Program-made: the position numbers and the translations under genes
Shown: positions 19,921 through 34,616 of the stretch, one piece after another
Position numbering within the stretch: the stretch's first letter is position 1
How the letters are laid out: every line of letters begins with the position of its first letter
DNA from: Burkholderiaceae bacterium
GTDB taxonomy: Bacteria; Pseudomonadota; Gammaproteobacteria; Burkholderiales; Burkholderiaceae
Assembly (NCBI GenBank): GCA_947449305.1
Contig: CANFRA010000003.1
Coordinates: 1-59,189, forward strand
Direction of reading: 5' to 3'
Length of the DNA: 59,189 bases
Notes under the pieces: model-generated
Told to the model about the DNA's origin: nothing
Database searches by the model: none
The model's input: the letters and a program-made list of their open reading frames with translations, nothing else

Positions 19921-20457
19921 TCAACGCTCGATACGAATAAATCCATCCCTATTAGGCATTTTTACCAAAGGTAGTGTCCTAGCATCCATCACAGCATCTT
20001 TTGGGATTATCTTATTAAGATACAAAATATAAGCGGTAGCGGCATAAACTTGATCATCTGTTAAGGACTGCGGCGCTTGATGTGGCATCGCCCTTTTCAC
20101 ATAATCAAAAATAGTAGTTGAGTAAGGCCAAAAACTGCCCACGGTCTTTACGGGCGAATTTGTATTCAACGAACCGCCACCCACAAGACGATTTGCTACT
20201 CCGCCTTGTCCCTGGTCTCCATGACAGGACGCGCACTGTTGCTGATATAACTTTTCTCCAATAATTGCGGTACTTGAGCCGGGTGGTAAGCCCGCTCCAC
20301 TTGGACCAACGTCAATATTCCAGGCCTGAATCTGATTTTCAGTAATCGGCTTGCCAAGGCCTATGGGGCTATGTGCTTGGTAACCACTAGTGCAGCCTAA
20401 TGGCATGCCAATGGTAACTATAAGCAGGGCAATATTGGTATATCTATTAGCGTCCAT
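19921..20457 (-). CDS. Monohaem cytochrome c lipoprotein, SoxD-like, partner of the sulfite dehydrogenase
   Basis: 178 residues with a lipobox (GMPLGC, lipidated Cys22) and one haem c site CASCH (Cys75, Cys78, His79). A likely axial Met is Met124 in RAMPHQAP. The region around GxPITENQIQAWNIDV and VKTVGSFWPY...FDYVKRAMP resembles one domain of SoxD, the cytochrome partner of SoxC, but SoxD is usually a larger diheme protein. Its start overlaps the soxC end by 11 nt, so the two are made together; it probably accepts electrons from sulfite oxidation and passes them to the respiratory chain. Confidence 0.85.
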   Translation of the reverse strand: MDANRYTNIALLIVTIGMPLGCTSGYQAHSPIGLGKPITENQIQAWNIDVGPSGAGLPPGSSTAIIGEKLYQQQCASCHGDQGQGGVANRLVGGGSLNTNSPVKTVGSFWPYSTTIFDYVKRAMPHQAPQSLTDDQVYAATAYILYLNKIIPKDAVMDARTLPLVKMPNRDGFIRIER

Positions 20458-21706
20458 TAGTCACTTCTCCATTAGCAGCAACACGCCATGGTTGAATGGC
20501 GTTATTGTGATAGAAAGTATTTGCGCTCTTAGCCTTGATAACAGCATCCATCGTAGGCTGCACTTCACCACTTGAATCAACCGCCCTACTCATCAATGTT
20601 GCTGGCGCTCCATCCCACATCCAAGGAAAGCGAAATCGAACTAGGGATTTATCTATTACAGGCTCCTGCAACACGGCCTCACTCCATGAGTTACCACCAT
20701 CCGTTGAGACCTCAACCCGCCGAATCTTGCCATTACCAGACCAAGCGAGACCTGAGATCTCATAAAAGCCTTTAGATTTGAGTTTCATCATCCCGGAAGG
20801 CTGTGTAATAACAGATTTCACCTCCATGGCGAAAGTAAATTGCAGCGCCTTCCCATCTGCCCGCAGATCGGTATAAGCAGAGGTCTCTTCACGAGTTTGC
20901 CATGGCTCAGTACCCAACTTAATTCTTCGCAACCACTTAATGCTCATATTGCCTTCATAGCCAGGCAAGAATAGACGCAGTGGATAGCCTTGTTCAGCAC
21001 GCAACATCTCACCGTTTTGTGCGTATACCAATAAAGCGTCGTCCATCATCTTGCTCATGGGAATGCTACGTGTCATTGCGGCGCCATCAGCACCCTCAGC
21101 CAAAGCCCATTTAGCAGAGGGCTGCACGCCGCACTCTTGCAAAATTGTTGATAAGCGCACGCCAGTCCACTCACAACAGGATACCAATCCATGAATTTGC
21201 TGAACCGTTTGATTGCTTGCCTTCTTGAGTTCAGCAGCGCTATTGCCAGAACACTCTAAGAAATAAATTCGGGATTCCGATGGAAAACGAACAATATCCT
21301 CCATACTAAAGACCATTGGGCGATCCACCAAACCATGAATCACCAATTTATGTAGGTCAGGATTAATATCGGGCACTCCTGCATGATGTCGCTCAAAAAC
21401 TAAACCATTAGGGGTAATAATTCCATGCAAGCTTTGCAGAGGAGTTCTTGAGCCCGTTAAGAATGTTGGCGCTGGAGAGGGAAGTAGTCGAACAACATTC
21501 TTTTCATACTTCGATGGCAAGCCATAAGGCGGATTTACGAAGGTTGATCCCTGAGTTTTTGTCCAAGGATCAACCTCTAAAAAACCATCGCCCTGATTTT
21601 TAGCAAAGGTAGAATTAGCACTTATTACGCCATTTACACTTGCCCCCGCAATAAGCGATGACTTTAAAAAAAGACGGCGATTAGAAAGTTTATCCCTCTT
21701 AGACAT
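20447..21706 (-). CDS. soxC: Periplasmic sulfite dehydrogenase, molybdenum subunit (SoxC-like)
   Basis: Molybdopterin enzyme of the sulfite oxidase family, 419 residues. A Tat signal (NRRLFLK followed by a hydrophobic stretch) directs folded export. The Mo-ligand cysteine is Cys152 in FLECSGNS, and the C-terminal dimerisation domain carries VSTDGG. The N-terminal segment (PSKYEKNVVR, FERHHAGVPDI) is like SoxC rather than the shorter SorA. No other sox genes are nearby; the neighbours are a cytochrome c and sulfolactate genes, so oxidation of free sulfite to sulfate is the likely role. A GGAGG 10 nt before the ATG supports the start. Confidence 0.85.
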   Translation of the reverse strand: MSKRDKLSNRRLFLKSSLIAGASVNGVISANSTFAKNQGDGFLEVDPWTKTQGSTFVNPPYGLPSKYEKNVVRLLPSPAPTFLTGSRTPLQSLHGIITPNGLVFERHHAGVPDINPDLHKLVIHGLVDRPMVFSMEDIVRFPSESRIYFLECSGNSAAELKKASNQTVQQIHGLVSCCEWTGVRLSTILQECGVQPSAKWALAEGADGAAMTRSIPMSKMMDDALLVYAQNGEMLRAEQGYPLRLFLPGYEGNMSIKWLRRIKLGTEPWQTREETSAYTDLRADGKALQFTFAMEVKSVITQPSGMMKLKSKGFYEISGLAWSGNGKIRRVEVSTDGGNSWSEAVLQEPVIDKSLVRFRFPWMWDGAPATLMSRAVDSSGEVQPTMDAVIKAKSANTFYHNNAIQPWRVAANGEVTNGR

Positions 21707-21793
21707 AAATACTTTGCCTCCGTTATATGCGTTACTCAGCTTATTTTTTTAAAGCATACTGCCAAACTATAAAAGTTGATATTTCTGTTAACC

Positions 21794-22786
21794 CTAGGCG
21801 CCATACATAATAAATATGAGCCCCAGAATAGCAATAAAGAGGGTTTCAACAACTAACATAAATACCGGCTGCCAACCTAGCTTTGCCAATTCTTGAAAAT
21901 TGGTTTTCAATCCTGCAGCTGCAATTGCAATCACTAACATCCAGCGTGATATTCCGCCAATTTGATGAGTGATTGAGACAGGTAAAATTTGCATTGAAGC
22001 CACAATAGAAAGTGCAACAAAGCCCAATAAAAATGTTGGGATCAAGCGTAAGCTACCCCATCCTAATTGGTTAGTAGCTCTTTGCGCACCAAAGAAAATA
22101 GAGATCACTAAAACCACGGGCAGGAGTAGCGCTACTCGAAATAACTTCACTACAGTCGCAACATCACCTGCCTCAGAACCAAACAGCATTCCTGCAGCTA
22201 CCACTTGCGCAACATCATGAATAGTAGCGCCTATGAAAATGCCAGCTGAAAGATCGCCAATATTGAGCATTTGCAAAGCAAAAGGATATGTCACCATTGC
22301 AATGGTCGACAGTACAGTCACGCCAACAACGACTAATAAGGTAAATTGCTCGTTTTCTTTTGACTTAGGCAATACAGAGGCAACCGCAAGTGCAGCCGAA
22401 GCACCACAAATACCAACAGATCCACCTGCTATCAAGCCAAAATCGGGAGATATCCTCAAAAACTTGGCAAGCAGTAGGCCTAAGATAACGGTGGCTGCAA
22501 CAGCAACCATGACCATTAGGCCAGTATTGATACCAATCGCACTAATGTCGGCAAAAGTAATCCGGATCCCTAAAAAAGCAACGCCCAAACGAAGAATGGT
22601 TTTTGCACAGAAGTCTATTCCTGGCTTGACAGCGTCATTTAGATAGAGAAAGTGCAGTGATAAGCCTAGTAACAAGGCATATAAGAGCTGTGGTCCACCA
22701 TAATTTTCAGAAAGAAAACTAGTAGACATGGCGATGATCAAACAAACCATTAAACCTGGTAAGTTCTGCTTAGCAGTCGTGAGCAT
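21794..22786 (-). CDS. YeiH/UPF0324-family membrane transporter, candidate sulfite/sulfate exporter
   Basis: 330 residues with about ten membrane helices and the family motifs FLGIRITF and GSVGICGASAALA. Members are called putative sulfate exporters, mostly by analogy. The position, 6 nt after the GntR gene of the sulfolactate operon and before soxC, argues for moving sulfite or sulfate out of the cytoplasm. Function is inferred from family and context. Confidence 0.82.
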   Translation of the reverse strand: MLTTAKQNLPGLMVCLIIAMSTSFLSENYGGPQLLYALLLGLSLHFLYLNDAVKPGIDFCAKTILRLGVAFLGIRITFADISAIGINTGLMVMVAVAATVILGLLLAKFLRISPDFGLIAGGSVGICGASAALAVASVLPKSKENEQFTLLVVVGVTVLSTIAMVTYPFALQMLNIGDLSAGIFIGATIHDVAQVVAAGMLFGSEAGDVATVVKLFRVALLLPVVLVISIFFGAQRATNQLGWGSLRLIPTFLLGFVALSIVASMQILPVSITHQIGGISRWMLVIAIAAAGLKTNFQELAKLGWQPVFMLVVETLFIAILGLIFIMYGA

Positions 22787-22792
22787 AAATTC

Positions 22793-23512
22793 TTAGACCA
22801 CTAACTCACTAAAGTATTCATGTTGATTGGTGTTCAGTGTAGAAATTCGCCATTCCAATGGCTCATCCTGAATACCAAGAGCTACCCTTCTGATAATCAA
22901 AACTGGTGAATCTGGCTTCAACCCTAACCACTCTGAGTATTGCTTGCCAGCCAGACCAGCGCGTAATCGCTCGCTACTGCGAACCACTGTCTGGCCGTAC
23001 CTCATTTGATATAACTGATAGATACTGCCCTCGCGATTAATAAAATCCGCACGAGTTAAATTCTTAAACCGCTTCTTATCCAAAGTGATATGGTCAATCA
23101 TGACGCATTTATCATCTAAATAAAGGCAATTGACCAGGCGCCATACTGATGTACCTTCTTTAATTTGCAGTTTGCTGGACTCTTCCCTATTTGCAAGAGC
23201 AGAAGTTAAGGAAACTAACTCGACTCGTGGATTTATTTTTTTATCAGCGTCGTGTTTTACAACGTGAAAAAAGTAATACAGCAATCGTTTAAGGTCATGC
23301 TCAGCAACATAGGTTCCCCTGCCTTGGCGACGAACCACAATACCTTCGGCAACCAACTCGTCCACCGCTTTACGCAGGGTTCCTATAGATACATCTAACT
23401 CTTTTGATAAATCCTTTTCGGCAGGCAATGCCTGCCCCATCGGATAACGGCCCCTGACCAGATCTTCGGTGATCTTTTGCTTTACTTCTTCATAAGCGGT
23501 CAGGGATCTCAT
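22793..23512 (-). CDS. GntR-family (HutC/UTRA subfamily) regulator of the sulfolactate operon
   Basis: 239 residues: N-terminal winged helix (about 10-75, with DLSKELDVSIGTLRKAVDEL as the recognition helix region) and a UTRA ligand-binding domain (about 95-235). It lies 10 nt downstream of suyB and 6 nt upstream of the YeiH gene, inside the operon, so it probably controls that operon in response to sulfolactate or a breakdown product. A 17-bp palindrome at 26989-27005 is the best candidate operator. Confidence 0.88.
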   Translation of the reverse strand: MRSLTAYEEVKQKITEDLVRGRYPMGQALPAEKDLSKELDVSIGTLRKAVDELVAEGIVVRRQGRGTYVAEHDLKRLLYYFFHVVKHDADKKINPRVELVSLTSALANREESSKLQIKEGTSVWRLVNCLYLDDKCVMIDHITLDKKRFKNLTRADFINREGSIYQLYQMRYGQTVVRSSERLRAGLAGKQYSEWLGLKPDSPVLIIRRVALGIQDEPLEWRISTLNTNQHEYFSELVV

Positions 23513-23522
23513 ACTTTAAAAA

Positions 23523-24695
23523 TTACGCTGATTCGTATAAACGGGTTAACACGAATTCACGGTGGCCAAGAATCTCAGAAGCTGTTAATTCGCCGTCAGC
23601 AGTGCGTAAGAGGCACTCCAACAACTTATCACCAGCTTGGTCCATATTCTCTTCGCGACGCAATAATCCTGATACATCAACGTCAATGTGCTCGCCCATA
23701 GTGCGTACTGTTTTTGGGTTTGCACAAATCTTAATCACTGGAAGAATTGCATTACCAATCACGTTACCTTGACCTGTTGGGAAGAAGTGCGCAGCAAATC
23801 CTGCAGCGGCACATAAGGTCACCATTTCAGCAGCAGCTGAGGAAGAGTCCATAAAGTGCAATCCTGGGATCTTAGGCTCTTCACCTTTATCCAAAACGCT
23901 GTCCACGATACATTTCTTACCAATCTTCTGAATGTTACCGAGAGCCTTTTCTTCAATCGTGGTTAAACCACCAGCAATATTGCCTTTGGTTGGTTGAGAG
24001 TCAGATAAATCGCTAGTCTTATGGCGTTCGATAACATCTTGATAGCGATCAAACATTTCACGGAACTTCTTTTTTACCTCTGGGGTACGGCAACGTGCTT
24101 CCACCAAGTGCTCACCACCAGTTAATTCGGTAGTTTCGCCAAATACTAAGGTGGAGCCAATGCCATAGAGCTTATCAAAGGCATCACCTACTGTTGGATT
24201 TGCGCCGCAACCAGATGTTGTATCAGACTCACCGCACTTGGTAGATACCCATAACTCAGATAAAGGCGCCTTGACCCGCTTTTGCTTAGAGGCATGCTTC
24301 ATCATTTGGTATGCAGCTTTGCTAGCAGAGGCAATCGTAGCGGTATCGCCATTACCCTCGATCCAGAAACCTTCTGCTGGCTTACCAGACGCCTTGATGC
24401 CATCAACCACAATTTTGGTCCACTGCGGCTCAATACCAATCACTACTACAGCAGCTACGTTTGGATTAGTACCAGTGCCAATCAAAGTGCGGAAGTGCAG
24501 ATCTAGGTCGGCACCAAATTGCAAACGGCCATAAGAGTGAGGGATAGCCTGAGTTCCTTTGATGTTATTTGCTACAGCTTCGCAAGCTGCGTTTGATAAA
24601 TCATCTAAAGGCAAAATTAATACGTGATTACGAATTCCCATGCGGCCATTTTCACGGCGATAACCCATGAAGCTCGCGTCTTTCAAATTAATCAT
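23523..24695 (-). CDS. suyB: (2R)-sulfolactate sulfo-lyase, large (beta) subunit
   Basis: SuyAB splits (R)-sulfolactate into pyruvate and sulfite. The 390 residues belong to the UxaA/altronate dehydratase large-subunit family, with [15 protein letters not shown] (Cys154, Cys163) as likely Fe or Fe-S ligands. The assignment to SuyB rather than altronate dehydratase rests on close resemblance to SuyB sequences as I remember them ([42 protein letters not shown]) and on the two sulfolactate dehydrogenase genes upstream. suyA precedes it by 40 nt. Confidence 0.88.
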
Positions 24696-24735
24696 CTTGT
24701 TTCTTTCTAAATGAATGGGTGAATAAAAGCCTGAA

Positions 24736-25017
24736 TTACCAGCGCTTCGTTTTTACGTTTTGAACATGGAGGTGCTCGCCTTTTTTGATGGGCGCTACAA
24801 CCTTGCCGATGTCTACGCCATACTTCATCACCGTATCGCCCGCCTTAAATTCATTCAATGAAATTTTGTGGCCAATTGGAATATCGCTCTCAGATTTCAT
24901 GTTGAGCGTTAAATCTCCATCCATTACCCAACCAATCAAATCATCTCCAGCTTTTACACCTTCAACTACCACCACGCCTACGCCATCTCCTGGCTCATGC
25001 ACGACAAAATGGATCAT
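24736..25017 (-). CDS. suyA: (2R)-sulfolactate sulfo-lyase, small (alpha) subunit
   Basis: 93 residues, an SAF-domain protein of the UxaA small-subunit family. Its motifs [15 protein letters not shown] and the C-terminal [10 protein letters not shown] match SuyA. A strong ribosome site (AGGAGAAGG) sits 2-8 nt before the ATG. It forms the lyase with SuyB, encoded just downstream. Confidence 0.88.
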
Positions 25018-25047
25018 TACCTTCTCCTCTTCAATCTTGTTTAACTA

Positions 25048-26058
25048 CTAAACACCCCATGACTGGCGAATACCAGTCTGAATTTCTTCTACAACTACAT
25101 CAGAAACGTTGACGCCCTCTTTAAAGCCTGATGCACGCTGCTTGAAACGCCTTTGCCCTGGAATGCGTGTTCCAGAATCTGATGCCAGGGTCTTTAAGAG
25201 CGCTTGCATCTTATTTGCAAACACTTGGCTGCCTGCCAGACCTGGATCAATCGTTAACAGAAGCTGCCCAATTCGAGGGCGATTTCCTTTGGCATCAAAG
25301 AACGAATCCGCCTCATAAGAGAAGCGACTTCCCGATAAACCGACAACTAGTAACTCAACAATCAGGGCAAGCAAAGCACCTTTATCTCCGCCTAGCGGAA
25401 CCATTAATCCTTTGAGCCCCTCATTAGGATCTGTGGTGGGTTTACCATCAGCTGTTAAGGCCCATCCCTCTGGAATAGATTCGCCTTTCTTTGCAGCAAC
25501 CAATAACTTGCCACGGGCTACTGCTGACAGAGACATATCAATTACTAAAGGATCTCGGTTAGTAATTGGAAATGCTGCAGCTAGAGGATTGGTTCCAAAA
25601 ATTGCTTTGCTACCGCCAACCATCGGCATCGCCGCAGGCGTGTTGCCAAACAACAATGAAATATATCCGGCGCGCGCTGCTGCTTCAGTAAAGTGCCCCG
25701 CAACCCCAAAGTGATGACTATTCGTTACTGCGACTAGACCCACTCCAGTCTTGGAAGCTAAGTTGACAGATAGGTCTGTAGCGAAGCGTAGCGCTGGAAA
25801 TGCAAGCCCATCACAAGCATCTACCAATGCAGCCGATACTTTAAAAGGGCGCACTTTGATTTTGGGAGCTAACTCGATGCGTCCATTTTTAGCATGTCCT
25901 GCATATTGCGATACGCGCGCTAATCCATGGGAAGCCAATCCATCAAGCTCAGCAAGTGCTAAAAATTGTGCTGTCTCATAAGCTGCTTTGTCACCAATAC
26001 CAGCTGCTCGTAAACCAGATGAGGCTAGCTCAAGCATCTGTTGATAGGATAAATTCAT
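25048..26058 (-). CDS. comC: (R)-sulfolactate dehydrogenase, ComC-like (malate/L-lactate dehydrogenase-2 family)
   Basis: 336-residue NAD(P)-dependent oxidoreductase of the Ldh/MDH-2 family, to which archaeal and bacterial sulfolactate dehydrogenase ComC belongs. Catalytic histidine in TNSHHFG (His115/116) and the cofactor/substrate segment FGTNPLAAAFP are visible. In this context it would reduce sulfopyruvate to (R)-sulfolactate, the substrate of SuyAB. Its ATG follows directly on the slcC stop (TAAATG), and suyA starts 31 nt after it. Related enzymes act on malate, lactate or ureidoglycolate, so specificity is inferred from the operon. Confidence 0.82.
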   Translation of the reverse strand: MNLSYQQMLELASSGLRAAGIGDKAAYETAQFLALAELDGLASHGLARVSQYAGHAKNGRIELAPKIKVRPFKVSAALVDACDGLAFPALRFATDLSVNLASKTGVGLVAVTNSHHFGVAGHFTEAAARAGYISLLFGNTPAAMPMVGGSKAIFGTNPLAAAFPITNRDPLVIDMSLSAVARGKLLVAAKKGESIPEGWALTADGKPTTDPNEGLKGLMVPLGGDKGALLALIVELLVVGLSGSRFSYEADSFFDAKGNRPRIGQLLLTIDPGLAGSQVFANKMQALLKTLASDSGTRIPGQRRFKQRASGFKEGVNVSDVVVEEIQTGIRQSWGV

Positions 26059-26988
26059 TTATGCTCCAAAAAACCGATTAACTTCATCGGCAATCATTTG
26101 ACTAACGCGCTCATTACTTTCATGAGTTACGCCTGCTACATGCGGAGTCAGAATGAGATTCTCTATACCTGCAAAGTGACTCAAATCTTTTGCTGGCTCA
26201 CTCTCAAACACATCCATAGCCGCCCCACCCAAACGCCCAGAGCGCAAACGCTCAGCAAGAGCCTTCTCATCAACGATGCCGCCCCGCGCAGTATTAATGA
26301 GGGAGGCACCATTTTTCATTTGATCTAAGGTAGCTGCATTAAACAGGTTCTTTGTTTCAGGCAAAAATGGAAGATGCAAGGTCACCACCTCGCTTTTAGC
26401 AAGAAGGTCATTCAATGAGAGTAATGGCACTGAAAATTCATCTAGCTCAACGGAGCCAGCAGGCAGCATTGGATCATATGCAAGGCAGTGTAAGCCAAAT
26501 GCATTTGCTTTCTTAGCCACCACCCTACCAATATTGCCAAAACCAACAATGCCAATGGTCTTGCCTAAAAATTCATGATAAGTAGAAAAACGAGGGCGAG
26601 GCCACTCACCTTTCAGCGTTGAAACCGTCGCTGGAATAAATCCTCTCGTTAATGCAACTGCAGCACCCACAACATACTCAGCAACAGACTCGGCATTTGC
26701 GCCAGTTGCTGGAATGACCTTGATGCTTCTTTTAGCACAGGCAGGCAATTCAATATTTTCAAGCCCAACACCCAGTCGACCTACTACCTTTAAGTTTGGG
26801 GCGCCCGCCAGGATCTCCTCATTTACTTGAGTGAGATTACGCACAATTAGTCCCTCAATATTTTGCAACGCAGCAATCAAAGCTGGGCGGTCTTTATAAA
26901 GATCTGGCTCGTAAACAACCTTGTGCTTAGAACGCAGGGTTTCTAAGGCTTGACTTGTAATGAACTCAGAGATCAAAATAGATGACAT
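26059..26988 (-). CDS. slcC: (S)-sulfolactate dehydrogenase, SlcC-like (D-2-hydroxyacid dehydrogenase family)
   Basis: 309 residues of the D-isomer-specific 2-hydroxyacid dehydrogenase family. The NAD motif GFGNIG is at 149-154, followed by the catalytic Arg in NTARGG, a Glu, and the His in LTPHVAG. SlcC oxidises (S)-sulfolactate to sulfopyruvate. The start MSSILISEF is where homologues begin; a GTG 18 codons upstream is less likely. No Shine-Dalgarno sequence is evident and a palindrome abuts the ATG, so a very short leader is possible. First gene of the leftward operon. Confidence 0.83.
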   Translation of the reverse strand: MSSILISEFITSQALETLRSKHKVVYEPDLYKDRPALIAALQNIEGLIVRNLTQVNEEILAGAPNLKVVGRLGVGLENIELPACAKRSIKVIPATGANAESVAEYVVGAAVALTRGFIPATVSTLKGEWPRPRFSTYHEFLGKTIGIVGFGNIGRVVAKKANAFGLHCLAYDPMLPAGSVELDEFSVPLLSLNDLLAKSEVVTLHLPFLPETKNLFNAATLDQMKNGASLINTARGGIVDEKALAERLRSGRLGGAAMDVFESEPAKDLSHFAGIENLILTPHVAGVTHESNERVSQMIADEVNRFFGA

Positions 26989-27005
26989 ATCTATATCATA
27001 TAGAT
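26989..27005. promoter_or_regulatory. 17-bp perfect palindrome at the slcC start, candidate GntR operator
   Basis: ATCTATAT-C-ATATAGAT: 8-bp arms around one base, touching the slcC ATG (26986-26988). Size and AT-rich dyad form fit operators of HutC-type GntR regulators. On the minus strand the same bases contain TATGAT, a possible -10 element (with a weak TTGCGG 17 nt upstream), so a bound regulator would block transcription. Confidence 0.5.
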
Positions 27006-27057
27006 GAATTTGATATCCCGCAAGATTCAAAGTATGGTGCACTGCAATCTCGAAAAA

Positions 27058-27107
27058 TATAAGCCTAAGTAGCGATAAAGCAGATACCGATTTGAAATAG
27101 GCTTATA
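27058..27107. repeat. 10-bp inverted repeat in the slcC-tctC divergent region
   Basis: TATAAGCCTA (27058-27067) and TAGGCTTATA (27098-27107) are perfect complements, 40 bp centre to centre. This is about four helical turns, as expected for looping or co-operative binding sites. Confidence 0.6.
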
Positions 27108-27131
27108 ACCATTTTATAAAAACTGGTTATA
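27104..27131. repeat. 8-bp inverted repeat upstream of tctC
   Basis: TATAACCA (27104-27111) and TGGTTATA (27124-27131), 20 bp centre to centre, about 60 nt before the binding-protein start. The left arm overlaps the last four bases of the 27058-27107 repeat. Confidence 0.55.
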
Positions 27132-27190
27132 TTTTTGAATGAAATAAAGGATAAGATACAAAAATCAAATTAACACTGGGGAACAGAAGA

Positions 27191-28177
27191 ATGCTTAAGA
27201 AATTCATTGGACGTATCGGCAAACAATTTGCATTGATCACAGGAGCATTACTTTTACTTGCATCGCCATTAAGCTATGCACAAAATTGGCCAACTAAACC
27301 TATTAAGCTCATCATTCCATTTGCTGCAGGTGGTACTACAGATATTTTAGGTCGCCTATTAGCGCAACAACTCACAAAAGATCTTGGACAAAATGTGATT
27401 GTCGAAAATAAGCCAGGCGCTGGTGGCAATATTGCCGCTGAGTTTGTAGCGCAATCTGCAGCAGATGGTTACACCATCATGCTCGCCTCTGGAAGCATGC
27501 TCACTGTCAACCCAAATCTTTATAAGAAATTGCCAGTCAATTACGCTAAAGACTTTGTTTATATTACTAATGTGGCGAGTGGTCCAATGCTGGTCTCAGT
27601 GAGTACTAAGTTACCAGTCAAAACCTTGAGTGAATTTATTGCTTATGCCAAGACTAAGGATCTTAACTTTGGTTCTGCAGGCATTGGTAGCCAAGTGCAT
27701 ATGGCAGCTGAGAACTTTACCTATTCAGCAAATATCCCCGCTACCCATGTGCCATATAAGGGTGAATCAGCAGCTATCAATGACTTAGTTGCTGGCCAAA
27801 TCGACTTCATGGTGGGCAATCTTACTGCGGCAACCGGATTTGCCAAAAATGGGCAAATAAAGCCTTTAGCTGTCACTAGCTTAAAACGTTCAAAACAATT
27901 ACCTGATGTGCCCACCGTAGCGGAAGCTGGTATTCCTGGATTTGAATCTACTGGTTGGTTTGGTCTTGTTGCTCCGGCAAACACCCCAAAGACGATTACT
28001 GAAAAGATTTACGATGCTACTGTTAAGGCCGTAAATTCGGAAGCATTGCGCGCTAGCCTTGATTTAAATGGCCTGACCGCTGTAGTAAACAACCAGAAAG
28101 AATTTGAATCTCAAGTAAAAGCGGAGTCAATAGTCTGGGAGAAAGTGATCAAGGGTCGCAATATTAGCGCTCAGTAA
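27191..28177 (+). CDS. TctC/Bug-family periplasmic substrate-binding protein
   Basis: 328 residues with a signal peptide (cleavage after ASPLSYA) and Bug-family features: WPTKPIKLIIPFAAGG at the mature N-terminus and PGAGGNIAAEFVAQS. Such proteins feed tripartite tricarboxylate transporters (TctABC), typically with carboxylates. It diverges from slcC and may capture sulfolactate, like SlcH in sulfolactate-degrading bacteria. The membrane subunits TctA and TctB are absent from the window, so it must borrow a permease or act as a sensor. GGGGA before the ATG supports the start. Confidence 0.88.
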   Translation: MLKKFIGRIGKQFALITGALLLLASPLSYAQNWPTKPIKLIIPFAAGGTTDILGRLLAQQLTKDLGQNVIVENKPGAGGNIAAEFVAQSAADGYTIMLASGSMLTVNPNLYKKLPVNYAKDFVYITNVASGPMLVSVSTKLPVKTLSEFIAYAKTKDLNFGSAGIGSQVHMAAENFTYSANIPATHVPYKGESAAINDLVAGQIDFMVGNLTAATGFAKNGQIKPLAVTSLKRSKQLPDVPTVAEAGIPGFESTGWFGLVAPANTPKTITEKIYDATVKAVNSEALRASLDLNGLTAVVNNQKEFESQVKAESIVWEKVIKGRNISAQ

Positions 28178-28203: not shown

Positions 28204-28237
28204 AATCAGGCGAAGACATCTTCGCCTGATTACTTTT
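28204..28237. terminator. Bidirectional terminator between tctC and the TauE gene
   Basis: A 13-bp perfect stem (28204-28216 with 28219-28231; GGCGAAGA/TCTTCGCC core) followed by ACTTTT on the plus strand; the minus-strand flank reads TTTGTCTTTG. It serves both converging transcripts. Confidence 0.85.
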
Positions 28238-28954
28238 CTAGATCTGGCGAACTAGGAGCATTGTTCCTGCAAAAACGAGGATTGATCCATAAGCCACTCG
28301 CATAGCAGCATTACTAAGCTTAGCGTGCACTTGGGTACCTAACCAAATCCCAAAAAAGGTTGCAGGCATTAGGCAGATTGCCAATCCAATAACTGGCCAG
28401 CTTAGTATCAAACCAGTAACCAACATTAAAGTCAGGCGCAAAAAGGTCAACATCAAGATTGCGAGTGCCATTGTGGCGCGCAACGCCTTCGGGTCATTGA
28501 TACGTAAGCCAAGATAAGAGACGTAAATAGGCCCACCAGTAGCAAATAACGCGGTAAAGGTTCCCCCCAAAAAACCAAATGGTGCAGCCCACCACTTATT
28601 GATAGGATCTCGCATTTCTGAGTTCCTCTGCCATAGCACTCTGGCACCATTGATAGCAGCAAAACATCCTAGCGTTATCAAAAGAGGTTCACTAGGCGCC
28701 TTCACTAGCAAAAAAATTCCCAAAACCATCCCAATCAGAGTGAATGGAAAGAGCCATTTAAGCTCTTTGAGATTAGCATCTTGAGAAGATTTTCTTCCGA
28801 CGTATAAGGAGCCACATATATCAATAATCACCATCATTGGAACTACCGATTTCAATGGATACATCTGCACCAGCAGGGGAACGGCAATGATTGATGATCC
28901 GAATCCTGATATGCCAAAAATAAAATAGGCGCCAAAAATAATTAAGGTCGCCAA
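28238..28954 (-). CDS. TauE/SafE-family sulfite/organosulfonate exporter
   Basis: About 238 residues with eight predicted membrane helices and the family motif GISGFGSS near the N-terminus. TauE/SafE proteins export sulfite, sulfoacetate or related anions. The apparent start is TTG at 28954, but the frame is open to 28996 and the upstream residues (DPIHFGLATLIIF) look like normal family sequence, so a rare start further upstream is possible. It is the last gene of the fumarase/flavoprotein operon, 35 nt after its neighbour. Confidence 0.82.
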   Translation of the reverse strand: MATLIIFGAYFIFGISGFGSSIIAVPLLVQMYPLKSVVPMMVIIDICGSLYVGRKSSQDANLKELKWLFPFTLIGMVLGIFLLVKAPSEPLLITLGCFAAINGARVLWQRNSEMRDPINKWWAAPFGFLGGTFTALFATGGPIYVSYLGLRINDPKALRATMALAILMLTFLRLTLMLVTGLILSWPVIGLAICLMPATFFGIWLGTQVHAKLSNAAMRVAYGSILVFAGTMLLVRQI

Positions 28955-28989: not shown

Positions 28990-30711
28990 TTAAGCCTCAA
29001 CCAAGATTGTTTGTCCGGGCTTGATCATCGTAAATTGTACTGGGCGATTTTCAATCTTCAGCTCTTGGTGATTCAAGTGAACAGCTGTGTAATAAGAGTC
29101 TTCAAGCGATCCAGGTTCTGGGAAATCTTCACGGTAGTGAGCCCCTCTCGAATTCTCTCTGGCAATAGCTGCCTCTGTTACAGACTGACTAACCAAAATG
29201 AGGTTTTGTAAATTCATCCAGTCTTGCCAAGTATTACTGTATTCCCGCTGAATATCACCAACACCCATTTGATTTAATTGTGAAGCTAGCCGTTTCAAAG
29301 TTTGACGTGCGCGAAATAAACTGTCTCTAGTTCTTGAAATACCGACATCATCCCACATGCACTCTGCGAGTTGATCTCGTATAGCCTCAATATCACCAGG
29401 CATCTTTTTCAATGGCGCTTCATGCTCATGAATGCTTGCTGCTACCTCATCCATATTGCACTCACTTAGTTGTTGTGATGCAACCCAGCGAGCCATTGAC
29501 TCTCCTGCGATGCCGCCAAACACGGTTGAGTTAGCAACGCCATTTCCGCCTAAGCGATTAGCGCCATGGACACCACCCGTGTCTTCACCAGCAGCAAATA
29601 GCCCTGGTAGATCAGTACTGCAATCTTTCTTAAAGACCAGACCGCCCATCATATAGTGGGCAGTTGGTACAACCTCGACTAAATCCCTAGTTAAATCAAA
29701 TCCACTATCAGCACAACGCTCGACCATGCCCTTAAATAGTTTGCGAACATTCTCAGGGCCTAAATGACTCATTTGAATATAAACACCGCCGTTAGGAGTT
29801 GCGCGCCCAGCACGTATTTCAGAATTGATTGATCTAGAAACAATATCCCTTGTGGCACGTTCGTTGCGCGGATCATAGTTACCCATAAAGCGCTCTTGAT
29901 TGCCATTGAGTAAATAACCACCAGCTCCACGCAAGCCTTCTTCAATAACTGTGCCAGTCATACGAGTGCCTGGGCCAGCTAATAGTCCTGTGGGATGAAA
30001 TTGCACCATCTCCATATCGCGCAAAACGAGGCCGGCACGCAGAGCCATTGCTAAGCCATCACAACTCTTATCTCCCGAAGGGGTATGGTATTTATACATT
30101 GTCGGGCCACCACCAGTGGCTAGCAAGACAGCTTTGGCACGCACCAATACAAATTGGCCAGTCTGCATATTGAGCATTAAGACACCTGCAAGTGATTTTC
30201 CATCTTTGCTATGGATCAATTCAATAGCGCGATGCTCTTCAAGGCGATTAATACCTCTAGCCCATACTTGCTCCGCTAGACGATTGATAATCTCGATGCC
30301 TGTTAAGTCACCCTTATGAACAGTCCGGTCAAATGTTTGGCCAGCAAATGCTTTTTGATGAACCGTACCGTCCGGATTACGATCGAAAAAGCAGCCTAGC
30401 TCATTCTCTAACTCATGGATACGTTCAACTGCAGTGTTGACTAGCGTCCAGGCTAAATCTTGATCGCAGAGCCATTTGCCACCCTCAATCGTGTCCATAA
30501 AATGGCGCTCGACAGAATCACCCTCAGCCAAAGCTACGTTGTAACCACCTTGGACCATGCGTGTGCAGCCAGACTTACCTAATAAGCCTTTCACTGCGAT
30601 CGTGATATCTAAGTTAGGATTTTCTTGATGTGCATGTAAGGCGGCAAAAAGGCCTGCGCCTCCAGAGCCCAGAATGAGAATATCGGTGTTAATTGTTGGG
30701 ATAGCGCTCAT
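28990..30711 (-). CDS. Succinate dehydrogenase/fumarate reductase-like flavoprotein subunit
   Basis: 573 residues. FAD Rossmann motif LGSGGAGLFAAL at 14-25; active-site equivalents of E. coli SdhA are present (His239 in QFHPTG, Arg288 in TRD, His352 in TAHYMMGG, and EEGLRGAGGYLLN). The segment SGCTRMVQGG aligns Cys49 with the histidine that covalently binds FAD in SdhA/FrdA, so FAD is probably not attached through His. Its ATG overlaps the fumarase beta stop (ATGA). With the Fe-S and two membrane subunits encoded at the start of the operon it should form a quinone-linked complex; direction and substrate are not certain. Confidence 0.88.
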   Translation of the reverse strand: MSAIPTINTDILILGSGGAGLFAALHAHQENPNLDITIAVKGLLGKSGCTRMVQGGYNVALAEGDSVERHFMDTIEGGKWLCDQDLAWTLVNTAVERIHELENELGCFFDRNPDGTVHQKAFAGQTFDRTVHKGDLTGIEIINRLAEQVWARGINRLEEHRAIELIHSKDGKSLAGVLMLNMQTGQFVLVRAKAVLLATGGGPTMYKYHTPSGDKSCDGLAMALRAGLVLRDMEMVQFHPTGLLAGPGTRMTGTVIEEGLRGAGGYLLNGNQERFMGNYDPRNERATRDIVSRSINSEIRAGRATPNGGVYIQMSHLGPENVRKLFKGMVERCADSGFDLTRDLVEVVPTAHYMMGGLVFKKDCSTDLPGLFAAGEDTGGVHGANRLGGNGVANSTVFGGIAGESMARWVASQQLSECNMDEVAASIHEHEAPLKKMPGDIEAIRDQLAECMWDDVGISRTRDSLFRARQTLKRLASQLNQMGVGDIQREYSNTWQDWMNLQNLILVSQSVTEAAIARENSRGAHYREDFPEPGSLEDSYYTAVHLNHQELKIENRPVQFTMIKPGQTILVEA

Positions 30712-31319
30712 GAAGTAATTCCAAGACTTTTTAATACGGCTTCTTTTTTAAGCGCCACATCACTCTTCACTTCCTGATAAATACTTCCTCCATGGCTATC
30801 CATTGCAACTAGCAATGGGCCGAAGTCTTTAATCTTGAAACGCCAGAGTGACTCTGGATTGAGATCGTCCATATCGACATCTTCAATTTGCTCTATCCAA
30901 GTGGTCTCAAGAGCTGCAGTGCCACCAATAATTGCTAGATATACTCCACCTAGATCCTTAAATGCTTGTGCAGAATCTTCACGCATACCGCCCTTACCGA
31001 CAATCATGCGAACCCCATTCTGTGTCATCAAGGGGCGAGTGAAACGCTCCATACGATCTGAAGTGGTAGTGCCAATGCAAATAGGCTCATAACCAGCAGG
31101 AAACTCTTTACTTACTGCAACTTTACGAACATTAGGCGCCGTATGGATTACTGCATGACCATTCAAGTCAAAATGTGTCTTACGACCATGATCGAACATC
31201 TGAATTTGCGTTGCATCGCGGATGCCAAACAAGGTGTTTTGCAAAGTCACCGTATCGTTAATGCGAAGCTTACGAATATCTTCTTCAGTAACAGGTGTTG
31301 CAAGGTTGTAATGGGCCAT
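30708..31319 (-). CDS. Class I fumarase (or tartrate-dehydratase-like), beta subunit
   Basis: 203 residues, equivalent to the C-terminal domain of one-chain class I fumarases and to TtdB. Motifs: GTTTSDRM, GKGGM and YLAIIGGTAAL. The ATG at 31319 has AGGA 8 nt upstream and lies 10 nt after the alpha stop; a longer frame upstream overlaps the alpha gene and is unlikely. It completes the hydratase with the alpha subunit, probably fumarate to malate. Confidence 0.88.
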   Translation of the reverse strand: MAHYNLATPVTEEDIRKLRINDTVTLQNTLFGIRDATQIQMFDHGRKTHFDLNGHAVIHTAPNVRKVAVSKEFPAGYEPICIGTTTSDRMERFTRPLMTQNGVRMIVGKGGMREDSAQAFKDLGGVYLAIIGGTAALETTWIEQIEDVDMDDLNPESLWRFKIKDFGPLLVAMDSHGGSIYQEVKSDVALKKEAVLKSLGITS

Positions 31320-31329
31320 ATTCGCTATC

Positions 31330-32205
31330 CTAGAATCCATAGGTAACGCCAGATGGCGTAAAGGTTGCACGCGCTCTGCGAGCCGAATGGCATTGCATAT
31401 TGACAGCTACAGGATTTAAGGTGATATGCGTATGTGCCAGCTCTACGTGGACCGCAAATGCTGTTCCATCGCCACCAAGTCCTTGTGGGCCGATTCCAAG
31501 CTGATTGACAGCTGCACTTAGCTCCTTCTCTAGCTTGGCACCCTCTTCATCGCTACATACACTACCCAACTCACGAGTCGCTGCACGTTTAGCCATAGCC
31601 ACGCATTGATCAGACGTTCCACCAACTCCAACACCAACGATCGTTGGTGGGCAAGTCTTGCCGCCAGCAGAGACAACACTATCAATTACAAAAGCTTTAA
31701 CGCCATTAATACCGTCAGCAGGAATTGCCATTTTTAAAAAGGAATTGTTCTCTGAGCCACTTCCTTTAGGAACCATCTCAATTTCAATAGACTCTGCAGC
31801 ATCATAGAAATCAATATGAATTGCCGGCATATCAATACCACACGAGGTGTGATTATTTTTACGGGTAATTGGATGTACTACTGAAGATCGCAGGGGATAC
31901 TCTCTGGTAGCGCGCTCGCACCCTTTGCGAATAGCAGCCTTTAATGCCATGCCATCAAATTGCACATTACTACCAATCTTCACGTTATAAATCGGTAGGC
32001 CGGTATCTTGGCATAGGAGATTATCTTCACGCTCTGCTACCGAGATATTGGTAATCATGGTCTTCAATACCACTTGAGCACGTGAATCTGTCTCAGCTTT
32101 ATTCAATTTATCTATACCTGCCTTAATGTCATCAGGCAGTACCTTTAAGGCGCGAATGTAAAGCTCTTTACAAGCCTCTTCCACTAAATTCATTGGTAAT
32201 TGCAT
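31330..32205 (-). CDS. Class I fumarase (or tartrate-dehydratase-like), alpha subunit
   Basis: 291 residues of the Fe-S hydro-lyase family. Cysteine in LLCQDTG and CPP in GGKTCPPTIVGVG are probable [4Fe-4S] ligands; PITRKNNHTSCG and PAIHIDF line the active site in the family. Such enzymes are oxygen-sensitive. The motif GVGGTSDQC differs from E. coli FumA/TtdA. Placed between the membrane subunits and the flavoprotein, it suggests a succinate-fumarate-malate sequence, or the same chemistry on a substituted C4 acid. Confidence 0.88.
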   Translation of the reverse strand: MQLPMNLVEEACKELYIRALKVLPDDIKAGIDKLNKAETDSRAQVVLKTMITNISVAEREDNLLCQDTGLPIYNVKIGSNVQFDGMALKAAIRKGCERATREYPLRSSVVHPITRKNNHTSCGIDMPAIHIDFYDAAESIEIEMVPKGSGSENNSFLKMAIPADGINGVKAFVIDSVVSAGGKTCPPTIVGVGVGGTSDQCVAMAKRAATRELGSVCSDEEGAKLEKELSAAVNQLGIGPQGLGGDGTAFAVHVELAHTHITLNPVAVNMQCHSARRARATFTPSGVTYGF

Positions 32206-32215
32206 GTCAGCCTAA

Positions 32216-32575
32216 TCAATTAGCAAAATATAAAAATAGGAGCCCGCAAACGATTGCGAACAAAACAGAGAGCTGTATCCAGCCCTTACGTAAACCCTTC
32301 CATGGACCAAACTCGATCATAAGAAGACGAATGCCGCCAGCCAAATGAACAGCCAGCAAAATCACTAAGGCCCACTCACCAAACTTGAATACCCATAAAT
32401 CCGTTAACGTGAGAGATTTCTGGAAACCTTCTGCACCCCTTAAAGATTGAGACAGCATCAGAAAATGCAAAGGAATAAAGCATGCTAATAACAAGCCAGA
32501 AAAGCGATGGCATGCATAAGCAAAATAAGATAAGTGGGTTTTGGCGCGGTAATCTAATTTTGGCCTGGAGCTCAT
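32216..32575 (-). CDS. Succinate dehydrogenase/fumarate reductase-like membrane anchor subunit 2
   Basis: 119 residues with three membrane helices and conserved histidines (ACHRFSG, IPLHFLM, LAVHLAGG), likely haem b or quinone-site residues. The start MSSRPKLDY at 32575 overlaps the stop of the preceding anchor gene (ATGA); the longer upstream frame lies inside that gene and is rejected. Confidence 0.85.
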   Translation of the reverse strand: MSSRPKLDYRAKTHLSYFAYACHRFSGLLLACFIPLHFLMLSQSLRGAEGFQKSLTLTDLWVFKFGEWALVILLAVHLAGGIRLLMIEFGPWKGLRKGWIQLSVLFAIVCGLLFLYFAN

Positions 32576-32922
32576 ATTTGACCGCCTGTAAAAACACCAA
32601 GGACAGCTGTAGTGCCAAGAATCAAAATCAGCAAAGCTAAGATCCAAGAAAGAGGCCTAGCCAAGCCACTCTTTGGAAAGGTCTCTTGCAATATATTGGC
32701 CATACCAATTGGAGCATGTACAAAGCAGGCTAGGACAAAAATTTCATAAAAAATAGCAAACAGCACATTGCCTTGTGTGCGCCCCAAGATTTCTTGGGCA
32801 GTAAGACCGCCCCTGATGGCATAAAAAATAATCACCAAATGAATCGCAACACAAATACCAAGCACCATGGCGCTAATTCTTTGGGCATACCAAAGCTTTG
32901 CCTGCAAAACATTGTTACTCAT
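32572..32922 (-). CDS. Succinate dehydrogenase/fumarate reductase-like membrane anchor subunit 1
   Basis: 116 residues with three membrane helices; RISAMVLGICVAIHLVIIFYA and FVHAPIGM carry histidines suited to haem b binding. Its ATG overlaps the iron-sulfur subunit stop by 8 nt (ATGAGTAA). With the second anchor subunit it would attach the complex to the inner membrane and pass electrons to or from quinone. Confidence 0.85.
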   Translation of the reverse strand: MSNNVLQAKLWYAQRISAMVLGICVAIHLVIIFYAIRGGLTAQEILGRTQGNVLFAIFYEIFVLACFVHAPIGMANILQETFPKSGLARPLSWILALLILILGTTAVLGVFTGGQI

Positions 32923-33649
32923 AGTTGCCCCACTTGCTACCTCGGACAGCAGCTCTAGCGACTAACTTTTTGAGACCAGCAATGCTTGCAGTTGGCTCAA
33001 TCGCCTTGGGACAGAACTCAGTGCAAGAGCCTTGTGAATGGCAAGCGTGGCAACCCGCATCACCCGCTACAGCTCTCATGCGCTCAAGCTGCTGAACATC
33101 TCTCACATCATTTGTTAGTGTCCAAGCACGATTGAGAGCGGCTGGGCCAAGATAATTTGGTCTAGATTGAACAACCTCACAAGATGCATAGCAAACACCA
33201 CAACCAATACATTCGATACCAGCGTCTGCCAATTGACGCTCCTCAGAATTTGGCTGTACTTTTGTAAAATCATCGTGACGTGTTTTGTCACCTTTAAAGA
33301 ATCCAACAGCACCCTTCCACTTATTAAAGAACTCACGCATATCAGTAGCAAGATCTTTAATGACAGGCAAGTTATTCAGGGGGGCAATTTCTAAAGAATC
33401 TCCCTCCACAATTTTAGAAACGTGAGTACGGCAAGTCCAACGAGCCACTCCATTGACGGTCATTGCGCATGAACCACACATTCCTACACGACAGGCAAAG
33501 CGATAGCTTAAAGTGGGATCAAGCTTTCTCTGAATATAGGTAACCACATCCAAAACAGTTTGATTTGGGTTTCGTGGCACCAAATACTCAACGAACTCAC
33601 CCTCTTGGGAGCCTCGCCAGACGTTTACTTTGAGATCGGTATTTGACAT
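32915..33649 (-). CDS. Succinate dehydrogenase/fumarate reductase-like iron-sulfur subunit
   Basis: 244 residues. An N-terminal plant-type [2Fe-2S] domain has CRVGMCGSC plus a fourth Cys in RWTC; the C-terminal part has CIGCGVCYASC and CHACHSQGSCTEFCP for the [4Fe-4S] and [3Fe-4S] clusters. First gene of the leftward operon Fe-S, two anchors, fumarase alpha and beta, flavoprotein, TauE. Transcription starts in the 73-bp region shared with the divergent LysR gene. Confidence 0.92.
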   Translation of the reverse strand: MSNTDLKVNVWRGSQEGEFVEYLVPRNPNQTVLDVVTYIQRKLDPTLSYRFACRVGMCGSCAMTVNGVARWTCRTHVSKIVEGDSLEIAPLNNLPVIKDLATDMREFFNKWKGAVGFFKGDKTRHDDFTKVQPNSEERQLADAGIECIGCGVCYASCEVVQSRPNYLGPAALNRAWTLTNDVRDVQQLERMRAVAGDAGCHACHSQGSCTEFCPKAIEPTASIAGLKKLVARAAVRGSKWGNYE

Positions 33650-33722: not shown

Positions 33723-34616
33723 ATGAAACTCATGTCCAGTATTAAAACCCTCAAAAACTTCTTGGCGATTACCCGCCACAAGAGCGTTGCAGCCGCCGCC
33801 CGGGAAATTGGTTTGACCGCGGCTGCAGCTGGCCAGCAGTTGCAGCAATTGGAAAAAGAAATTGGTCTTGAGCTCTTTGATCGGACTAAGCGCTCCCTGA
33901 CTTTGAATGCTCATGGCAGATCCCTGATTGAGCCTATTCAGGAAATTATGGCTCGCTATGAAGCCCTTCGCTCAAACCTTCAATCTAACATCAACGGCAC
34001 AATTGTCCTAGGTGCCCTGGTTTCTACACTGATGGGTGCATTTGGCAAAACCCTCAATGAAATCAAACATAACTATCCTGAGTTAGAAATCAAATTAATA
34101 GCTGGCTTATCCAGTAATTTCTTGGATCAACTAATCGAAGGCACGCTTGATGCGGCAATTGTGACTGAGTCACCTTATGCGCTACCCCAAAGCCTTCAGT
34201 GGACAGAGCTCTATAAGGAGCCCATGATTTTGATTTACCCAAATACACCGCCTGGTAAGAAAAAAGATCTCAACTCTAATCCGCCATTCATTCGCTTTGA
34301 GAGAAATACTTGGACAGGACATCTTGTTGATCAAACCATCAAGTCTAATAAGCTATCGATTCAAGATGGCATGGAATTAAATTCTGTAGAGGCCATTATT
34401 GAGTTAGTTAGACAAGGCCTTGGATACTCTATCGTTCCACAGTTAGCCAATATTTCATGGTCCAACGATCGACAGCTTAGAATTCAAGAGCTGCCTGGAA
34501 AAACGATCTTCCGAAAAGTCGGATTGCTTGAGCGTAAAAAACACCTACGACAAAACGTCACTCAAGTTATCAAGCAATACTTTTTATCGGGTACAAGGAA
34601 AAAATTAAAGCCCTAA
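33723..34616 (+). CDS. LysR-family transcriptional regulator
   Basis: 297 residues: N-terminal winged helix (about 5-65, SVAAAAREIGLTAAAAGQQL) and a periplasmic-binding-protein-like effector domain (about 90-290). Divergent orientation over a 73-bp intergenic region makes it the probable regulator of the fumarase/flavoprotein/TauE operon. Effector unknown; a C4 dicarboxylate is a reasonable guess. An in-frame ATG at 33732 is an alternative start. Confidence 0.9.
   Translation: MKLMSSIKTLKNFLAITRHKSVAAAAREIGLTAAAAGQQLQQLEKEIGLELFDRTKRSLTLNAHGRSLIEPIQEIMARYEALRSNLQSNINGTIVLGALVSTLMGAFGKTLNEIKHNYPELEIKLIAGLSSNFLDQLIEGTLDAAIVTESPYALPQSLQWTELYKEPMILIYPNTPPGKKKDLNSNPPFIRFERNTWTGHLVDQTIKSNKLSIQDGMELNSVEAIIELVRQGLGYSIVPQLANISWSNDRQLRIQELPGKTIFRKVGLLERKKHLRQNVTQVIKQYFLSGTRKKLKP

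Follow-up and report, generated by a model that had tools for sequence, protein, structure and literature searches.

A sulfolactate degradation locus joined to a succinate dehydrogenase- and fumarase-like operon in a Polynucleobacter-type genome, a candidate gene set for 3-sulfopropionate use

The described systems closest to the locus reported here are the hpsRNOUPsuyAB cluster of Cupriavidus pinatubonensis, whose gene order is given in the accessible part of PMC11382572, and the clusters of Chromohalobacter salexigens and Paracoccus wurundjeri Merri, which, according to the available portion of PMC12421959, encode the four enzymes SlcC, ComC, SuyA and SuyB. The present analysis concerns a stretch of 59,189 nucleotides (contig CANFRA010000003.1, hereafter the window) of a Polynucleobacter-type genome (G000; 1.48 Mb, 62 contigs, about 72% complete). 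Here the same four enzymes are encoded in an operon (operon 1) that, unlike the clusters of C. salexigens and P. wurundjeri, continues into gntR, yeiH, soxC and a cytochrome c gene, and that is adjoined by a second operon (operon 2) for a succinate dehydrogenase (SDH)- and fumarase-like module. With the C. pinatubonensis cluster the window shares SuyAB (75% identity for SuyB and 55% for SuyA), the (R)-sulfolactate branch point and a nearby TctC gene, but it adds slcC-comC, gntR, yeiH, soxC and the SDH/fumarase block; relatives of hpsN, hpsO and hpsP were not found in the window. As a sulfolactate locus it is already known in kind; in its larger form, with the dedicated SDH/fumarase module adjoined, it represents a new variant. 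We consider it fairly probable that the two operons form a catabolic island for three-carbon sulfonates, in which 3-sulfopropionate would be converted through 3-sulfoacrylate and (R)-3-sulfolactate to pyruvate and sulfite.

3-Sulfopropionate joined the fermentation products of sulfoquinovose and 2,3-dihydroxypropane-1-sulfonate (DHPS) in 2024, as stated in the available portion of PMC11489063. The same portion describes its formation by Enterococcus gilvus and the ability of Bilophila wadsworthia to respire with it, states that bacterial degradation of 3-sulfopropionate had not been reported earlier, and cites a thesis in which Roseovarius nubinhibens degrades the compound via sulfoacrylate and sulfolactate. 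The mechanism of degradation in B. wadsworthia is called unclear in the accessible part of a 2026 review (PMC12890257), and that of PMC13372026 describes 13C-labelled Burkholderiaceae which probably consume DHPS and sulfolactate secondarily. A literature search, outside which most subscription journals and theses lay, found no genes for a 3-sulfopropionate route and no paper joining sulfolactate with Polynucleobacter or sulfopropionate with succinate dehydrogenase; judged by title, none of the literature on Polynucleobacter and sulfonates was on this subject.

Operon 1 (slcC-comC-suyA-suyB-gntR-yeiH-soxC-cytochrome c, 27042-19921 on the minus strand, from open reading frame (ORF) calls) begins with an slcC-like gene for a D-2-hydroxyacid dehydrogenase (26059..27042, minus strand; PF02826/PF00389). 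It is followed on the same strand by a comC-like gene for an Ldh_2 dehydrogenase presumed to act between (R)-sulfolactate and sulfopyruvate (25048..26058) and by suyA (24736..25017) and suyB (23523..24695) for the small and the large subunit of a putative sulfolactate sulfo-lyase. From slcC to yeiH, successive genes are separated by 0, 30, 40, 10 and 6 nt, yeiH and soxC lie 87 nt apart, and soxC overlaps the cytochrome c gene. An earlier note, made from the letters of the window, had described this gene order with its strands and spacings, all of which are present in the sequence, and had started slcC at the in-frame ATG at 26988, a possible alternative to the GTG at 27042 taken here. Its reading of a sulfolactate degradation locus agrees with homology and context; the feature is longer than was stated, as operon 2 (33649-28238) belongs with operon 1, and the sulfoquinovose-derived sulfolactate that the note had named is but one possible source. 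A SuyB relative is encoded in 59 loci of public genomes and metagenome-assembled genomes (MAGs), and the order comC-suyA-suyB-gntR recurs in almost every Polynucleobacter locus of sufficient reach, so that operon 1 is not a chance assembly. One locus (L058) has comC and slcC turned round, and in many operons of other families the GntR gene is divergent from suyA. A Polynucleobacter-like suy locus (L057) also stands on a contig of a MAG with the label Thermoflexus hugenholtzii, where that contig is probably mis-binned.

The identity of SuyAB was examined by direct comparison, by a survey of 121 related genomes and by a tree. SuyB, which carries the second and C-terminal domains of the GD_AH family, is 75% identical to the protein of C. 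pinatubonensis HN-2 (L091) and 62% to that of Paracoccus versutus, as against 30% to Escherichia coli UxaA, 29% to GarD and 29% to the UxaA-like protein of G000 itself. The SuyB-like matches over the 121 genomes fall into two groups, at 73-100% and at about 29-41% (UxaA-like and other proteins), with a wide gap between them. The SuyB of G000 is identical to that of Polynucleobacter campilacus, and the nearest plasmid-borne relatives are those of Caballeronia (76%) and of C. pinatubonensis HN-2, the latter within the context LacI-hpsN-hpsO-major facilitator superfamily transporter-alcohol dehydrogenase-suyA-suyB. In a tree of 38 rows the window SuyB shares a clade with its counterparts from C. 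pinatubonensis, P. versutus and Methylobacterium, and UxaA, GarD and the UxaA-like protein of G000 fall outside, on long branches that leave their own exact placement unsure; the check that the earlier note had set thus groups it with SuyB proteins of the hps-suyAB cluster type, apart from the altronate and galactarate dehydratases. The small SuyA, encoded separately and adjoining SuyB, has no Pfam match and matches weakly the N-terminus of galactarate dehydratase (3.9e-7), and the SuyA to which it is 55% identical is that of the C. pinatubonensis hps-suy cluster. An altronate or galactarate dehydratase is ruled out by the identity gap, the direct comparison and the tree, and homology and context point to an (R)-sulfolactate sulfo-lyase.

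The two dehydrogenases are less sharply defined. The best model for ComC, NF040650 (L-sulfolactate dehydrogenase), gives 220 bits where its cut-off is 500, hence the designation as ComC-like; among structures, L-sulfolactate dehydrogenase (PDB 2x06) matches with an E-value of 6.5e-48 and is outscored by 1wtj (ureidoglycolate dehydrogenase/piperideine-2-carboxylate reductase). SlcC belongs to the 2-hydroxyacid dehydrogenase family, no SlcC-specific model matched in the family scans of the window proteins, and its position beside comC and suyAB makes it a candidate (S)-sulfolactate dehydrogenase. Operon 1 as a whole would thus be a sulfolactate degradation module of a known kind.

Operon 2 (sdhB2-sdhX2-sdhX1-fumN2-fumC2-sdhA2-tauE, minus strand), which the earlier note did not take up, is divergent from a LysR regulator gene (33723..34616, plus strand; family scan) that stands at the same place in 12 loci, the others mostly ending before it. 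It encodes on the minus strand an iron-sulfur subunit (sdhB2, 32915..33649; TIGR00384 187, over the cut-off of 88), an SDH membrane anchor-like subunit (sdhX2, 32572..32922; TIGR02968 33.6, below its own cut-off of 41.8) and a cytochrome b556-like membrane subunit (sdhX1, 32216..32647; TIGR02970 60.9, over the cut-off of 52.3). These are followed by the alpha (Fe-S) and beta subunits of a class-I fumarase-type hydratase, a candidate 3-sulfoacrylate hydratase (fumN2, 31330..32205; fumC2, 30708..31370; PDB 7xky_A and 7xky_B, respectively), an SDH/fumarate reductase (FRD)-type flavoprotein, a candidate 3-sulfopropionate dehydrogenase (sdhA2, 28990..30711), and a TauE/SafE exporter for sulfite or a sulfonate (tauE, 28238..28954; PF01925 109.5 bits). 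Subunits A and B and the two membrane subunits of a complex II are thus all present. The best match of SdhA2 is TfrA (539, cut-off 718), and among the 25 models listed (of 35) it exceeds no SDH or FRD cut-off. FumN2 exceeds the cut-off of the NCBI model NF004885, 'fumarate hydratase' (311.5 against 276; also over TIGR00722), and FumC2 is just under that of TIGR00723 (143.9 against 145.15). Related blocks occur in two types, of which type I, with the order of the window (B-X2-X1-N-C-A), goes with suyAB, and type II has the order B-X2-X1-A-N'-C', its FumN' being 31-39% and its FumC' 26-30% identical to the window proteins.

The association of such blocks with suyAB is widespread. In the 121 related genomes (cut-offs of 73% for suyB and 64% for sdhA2, counted by hand with fragments included) both genes are present in 36, suyB alone in five, sdhA2 alone in three and neither in 77; in one of the three with sdhA2 alone (G001), the contig breaks in slcC and hpsNOP precedes the block. 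Among 48 Burkholderiales genomes that lie outside the genus and each represent a different family, sdhA2 occurs in seven of the eight with suyB and in none of the 40 others (p 1e-7). At least 7.8 kb of upstream sequence is available for 42 of the 59 suyB loci, and sdhA2 is found in 35 of these, 23 with slcC and 12 without; slcC without sdhA2 occurs in five and neither gene in two. A search of 349 Burkholderiales genomes found the window-type fumN in 43, 41 of them outside the genus (34 newly fetched fragments and seven from the set of 48 families). The outside-genus fragments carry suyB in 32 cases, 30 of them on the strand of fumN and all less than 9.2 kb away from start to start, and the typical order is suyA-suyB-(thiamine diphosphate (ThDP)-dependent protein, SorA-like enzyme or YeiH)-sdhB2-X2-X1-tctC-fumN-fumC-sdhA2-comC. 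Of the nine blocks without suyB, five reach the contig end (L110, L111, L113, L177, L205), two of them with a piece of suyB. The same linkage is seen on Methylobacterium plasmids. Genes for the conversion of DHPS to sulfolactate (hpsNOP) stand just upstream of the block in L112, L179 and L181, and the genes inserted within the block of L109, and in L145 after sdhA2 and ahead of fumN', resemble by eye TRAP- and TonB/ExbB-type genes and unrelated ORFs.

Plain degradation of sulfolactate (and of DHPS or cysteate) with the block as a passenger would be consistent with the suyAB loci that have no block (seven of the 42, plus 20 further fragments outside the genus), but it is highly improbable in view of the single interleaved operons found in many families and of the distribution over the 48 families.

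Gene content, homology, linkage and residue changes could be read directly, the latter from 24 rows of SdhA2 proteins (15 type I, eight type II and one archaeal) numbered against E. coli SdhA. H242, E255, R286, H354 and R399 are kept in all 24, Thr254 is replaced by Glu in all 24, and GCT stands in place of SHT at His45, which we take to be the FAD (flavin adenine dinucleotide)-linking residue, again in all 24; the roles of Thr254 and of the other SdhA sites are likewise assumed. A six-residue insertion precedes Glu254, of five residues in the archaeal row. SdhA2 shares the fold family and the catalytic His and Arg residues with the flavoproteins of SDH, FRD and L-aspartate oxidase, but differs in the Thr254 replacement, the insertion and the loss of the FAD-linking histidine. 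The signature HPTGxxxGxxT[RK]xTGxx[LI]EEGxRG is common to both block types, which suggests that both may act on one substrate. In the hydratase rows printed, type I keeps the class-I fumarase motifs CQDTG, PLRSS, KGSGSEN, TTS.RM and GKGGM, but the window has Gln for the His of RDxxH, a site at which the remaining type I rows carry Gln or Leu; in type II, CQDTG becomes C[GA]DTG, KG.GSEN is lost and TTS.RM becomes TASFRF. The roles of these motifs are, presumably, those of class-I fumarases.

An ordinary duplicate of SDH and fumarase, supporting the tricarboxylic acid (TCA) cycle during growth on sulfolactate-derived pyruvate, would agree with the family membership, with the catalytic residues kept and with FumN2 exceeding a fumarate hydratase cut-off. 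We hold it to be quite unlikely, as G000 has another copy of each (an SDH-type flavoprotein 34% identical to SdhA2 and a class-I fumarase-type ORF at G000:C36), tauE lies in the operon, suyAB is linked, and the Glu254 replacement with the loss of His45 extends over both block types and a haloarchaeon.

From these data we infer the substrates, the direction and the stereochemistry of the 3-sulfopropionate route. The SdhA2 complex, probably quinone-linked, would dehydrogenate 3-sulfopropionate, an analogue of succinate, to 3-sulfoacrylate, an analogue of fumarate; FumN2/FumC2 would add water to give 3-sulfolactate, the malate analogue; and SuyAB would split (R)-3-sulfolactate into pyruvate and sulfite. 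SlcC and ComC would interconvert the sulfolactate enantiomers via sulfopyruvate, and YeiH, TauE and the SoxC/cytochrome c pair would remove sulfite. Provided that the sulfolactate split by SuyAB is a product of type I blocks, the substrate of the hydratase would be 3-sulfoacrylate and that of SdhA2 3-sulfopropionate. A fumarase-like hydration would yield the spatial equivalent of (S)-malate, (R)-sulfolactate, the enantiomer used by SuyAB, so that SlcC would not be needed on this branch. The distribution of slcC is in line with such a direct route. One Polynucleobacter subclade (L043, L045, L046, L048, L050, L051, L053, L054, L055, L081, L084) retains the SDH/fumarase block together with comC and suyAB, yet no slcC orthologue (best 28-34%) was found anywhere in its genomes, 11 of 11; these account for 11 of the 12 loci with sdhA2 and no slcC. 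Outside the genus, a scripted count found slcC in eight of 37 suyB fragments with the block and in 12 of 20 without it (p 0.005), slcC thus missing from 29 of 37 and eight of 20, respectively; the sequences are related and not independent, fragment lengths vary, L103 with its type II block is among the 37, and L096, with a 35% slcC match, is counted as without.

Several observations weigh against this route. Linkage alone indicates a shared pathway and says nothing on which sulfonate is used; no gene for a source of 3-sulfopropionate stands beside the block; and comC, unneeded by the direct (R)-sulfolactate route, is kept in 26 of the 37 block-bearing suyB fragments. A one-contig genome (G109) has suyB but no sdhA2 of this kind, and suyB was not found in the 19.5 kb fetched around four blocks inside contigs (L175, L179, L181, L194), the rest of these genomes not being searched. 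The tie is looser in 398 genomes of the phylum (sdhA2 in 11, suyB in 15, both in five), where the three carriers of both outside the genus are of type II with the genes on different contigs, and type II blocks without suyAB imply that SdhA2 does not always feed SuyAB. Glu254 does not suggest itself as a ligand for a sulfonate, part of the preceding insertion occurs in Mycobacterium smegmatis Sdh1 too, and FumN2, being over the NF004885 cut-off, could hydrate plain fumarate. Work on fumarate reductase indicates that loss of the FAD-linking histidine is unfavourable to succinate-type oxidation, and the reaction could therefore run backwards. Such a reverse run, from sulfolactate via sulfoacrylate to 3-sulfopropionate as an electron sink with export by TauE, would also agree with the label of probable 3-sulfopropionate exporter given to the E. 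gilvus TauE in the available portion of PMC11489063. It is nevertheless very unlikely, as SuyAB in the same operon would yield pyruvate to grow on, 34 of the 41 blocks outside the genus contain a tctC uptake gene between sdhX1 and fumN, and the SoxC-like enzyme with its cytochrome c implies respiration.

Type II blocks (L101-L105, L116-L119, L145-L152) were found in Cupriavidus, Paracoccus, Sulfitobacter, Methylobacterium nodulans, Pseudomonas MPC6 and Pseudorhizobium NT-26, mostly with some of the genes for TauE, YeiH, SorA/SorT, LysR and tripartite tricarboxylate transporters and no suyAB in the cluster; P. versutus has suyAB about 21 kb away. In the 398 genomes of the phylum, nine of the 11 with sdhA2 are of type II, and three of these nine have suyB, on other contigs. 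In MPC6 the gene after fumC' encodes a methylmalonate-semialdehyde-type dehydrogenase, and the NT-26 block has a succinate-semialdehyde-type dehydrogenase gene as a neighbour. A further cluster induced in P. wurundjeri on sulfofucose, described in the available portion of PMC12421959 as linked to fumarate and tartrate metabolism and as having a TauE homologue, resembles by that description operon 2 or a type II block. Type II blocks are possibly a second, SuyAB-free way of freeing sulfite. Tentatively, and with rather less confidence than in the 3-sulfopropionate route itself, the two types may be seen as a sulfonate shadow of the succinate-fumarate-malate arm of the TCA cycle, made of a dedicated SDH-type complex and one of two hydratases. 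Within such a scheme type I would supply SuyAB with (R)-sulfolactate. The type II hydratase, its active site remodelled, would add water to sulfoacrylate on the carbon that bears the sulfonate; sulfite would then leave without SuyAB, and the malonate semialdehyde formed might pass to the methylmalonate-semialdehyde-type dehydrogenase. Such a scheme would provide the gene set so far missing for the use of 3-sulfopropionate by aerobes of lakes, soils and the sea.

Type II also bears on a start from sulfosuccinate, in which the SDH-type complex would form sulfofumarate, to be hydrated either to sulfomalate with a SuyAB-type split or to a hydroxysulfonate that falls into oxaloacetate and sulfite. 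The compared active-site residues of SdhA2, kept except T254, agree with it, as do type II blocks that have TauE, YeiH or sulfite dehydrogenases and no clustered suyAB, as if releasing sulfite by themselves. However, block-linked SuyB proteins are mixed in the tree with those of plain sulfolactate and DHPS loci, which points to sulfolactate as the common intermediate, and the semialdehyde-type dehydrogenases by type II blocks better fit sulfopropionaldehyde or malonate semialdehyde; sulfosuccinate is thus an unlikely substrate.

Other genes recur near the blocks. A ThDP-dependent protein resembling acetolactate synthase and 2-hydroxyacyl-CoA lyase accompanies both types (L086, L094, L104, L108, L110, L116, L121, L146, L152 and 17 of the 41 fragments outside the genus) and could be a decarboxylase for sulfopyruvate or for homocysteate-derived 2-oxo-4-sulfobutyrate. 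Several type II blocks (L102, L104, L145, L149, L151) have a nitroreductase-family gene in their vicinity. The haloarchaeon Natribaculum luteum (L120:5503-12471) has an SdhA2 of 49% identity with the same signature, SdhB and TauE together, and its cluster adds a SuyAB-like pair of 36-37% and an argininosuccinate-lyase-family protein.

Gene sets very similar to the window's occur on plasmids of Methylobacterium oryzae and M. radiotolerans, the records of which name no pathway, and the view that the arrangement is new as a sulfolactate locus is ruled out by them. They share the type I block, TauE, suyAB, slcC, comC and gntR at about 34-70% identity, and have DctA, ABC-type binding proteins and the ThDP protein, not TctC and SoxC; the M. 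oryzae set further includes a sulfate exporter and a small protein as well as a SorA-like molybdenum enzyme. Plasmid pTAV3 of P. versutus shares gntR, suyA, suyB and the exporter, but its gntR is divergent and hpsNOP, slcC/comC and the type II block lie about 6-24 kb off.

Downstream of suyB on the minus strand, operon 1 encodes a SuyR-like GntR/UTRA regulator (22793..23512; domain families), a YeiH/SuyZ-like sulfite/sulfate exporter (21794..22786; PF03601; TIGR00698 138 bits, cut-off 232.6), a SoxC-like molybdenum enzyme, a candidate sulfite dehydrogenase (20447..21706; TIGR04555 617 bits, cut-off 420), and a c-type cytochrome with a single CASCH motif read in the translation (19921..20457; PF13442/PF00034). 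The proposed role of the exporter in sulfite disposal fits the order suyA-suyB-exporter of P. versutus with its divergent gntR. At more than 70% identity yeiH is found in 19 of the 59 suyB loci, and a suy-linked soxC in eight, some loci ending early, and both are extras varying by lineage. The SoxC family membership noted before holds, with PDB 2xts matching at 361 bits (E 1e-106); for the Sox-cluster SoxC of a related genome (G506) the match to 2xts is stronger, at 400 bits, and the window protein is a paralogue of the Sox-cluster SoxC. SoxY is present in 11 of 11 genomes tested and a second SoxC, 47-50% identical to that of the window, in nine of nine, the one of G000 (48%, G000:C19:11664) lying about 1.3 kb from SoxY on another contig, and a part in the Sox system is therefore unlikely. 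No dihaem SoxD partner or sox genes were met beside the window soxC, its neighbour being the 178-residue cytochrome, which is probably its electron acceptor; from its context, the enzyme probably serves sulfite oxidation. A SorA-related gene (32-37%) between suyB and sdhB2 in L108, L180, L182, L183, L184, L185, L188 and L202 perhaps takes its role.

The TctC-type solute-binding protein gene (27191..28177, plus strand; PF03401 241 bits), earlier put forward as the uptake gene, is present and divergent from slcC; it stands without TctA or TctB relatives in the window, the window proteins being the scope of the TctB search, and a TctA gene lies elsewhere in G000 (C1:61476). Between slcC and tctC, a palindrome (TATAACCA...TGGTTATA, 27104..27131; 12-nt arms, 92% complementary) is a candidate regulator site. 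A site shared by both operons was not found, as there is a palindrome before slcC but just AT-rich repeats before sdhB2. A terminator-like hairpin with a 12-bp stem (28204..28231) between tctC and tauE is common to the convergent tctC and operon 2.

Polynucleobacter is common in fresh water. Growth on 3-sulfopropionate is the likeliest role of the larger form of the locus, and one that we regard as reasonably probable, and the block provides a testable gene set for the aerobic use of this compound. The SdhA2 signature can serve as a marker for finding the block in records annotated just as 'FAD-binding protein' and 'fumarate hydratase'. If the proposed route is true, it would also illustrate a way in which core enzymes of the TCA cycle are recruited to sulfonates.

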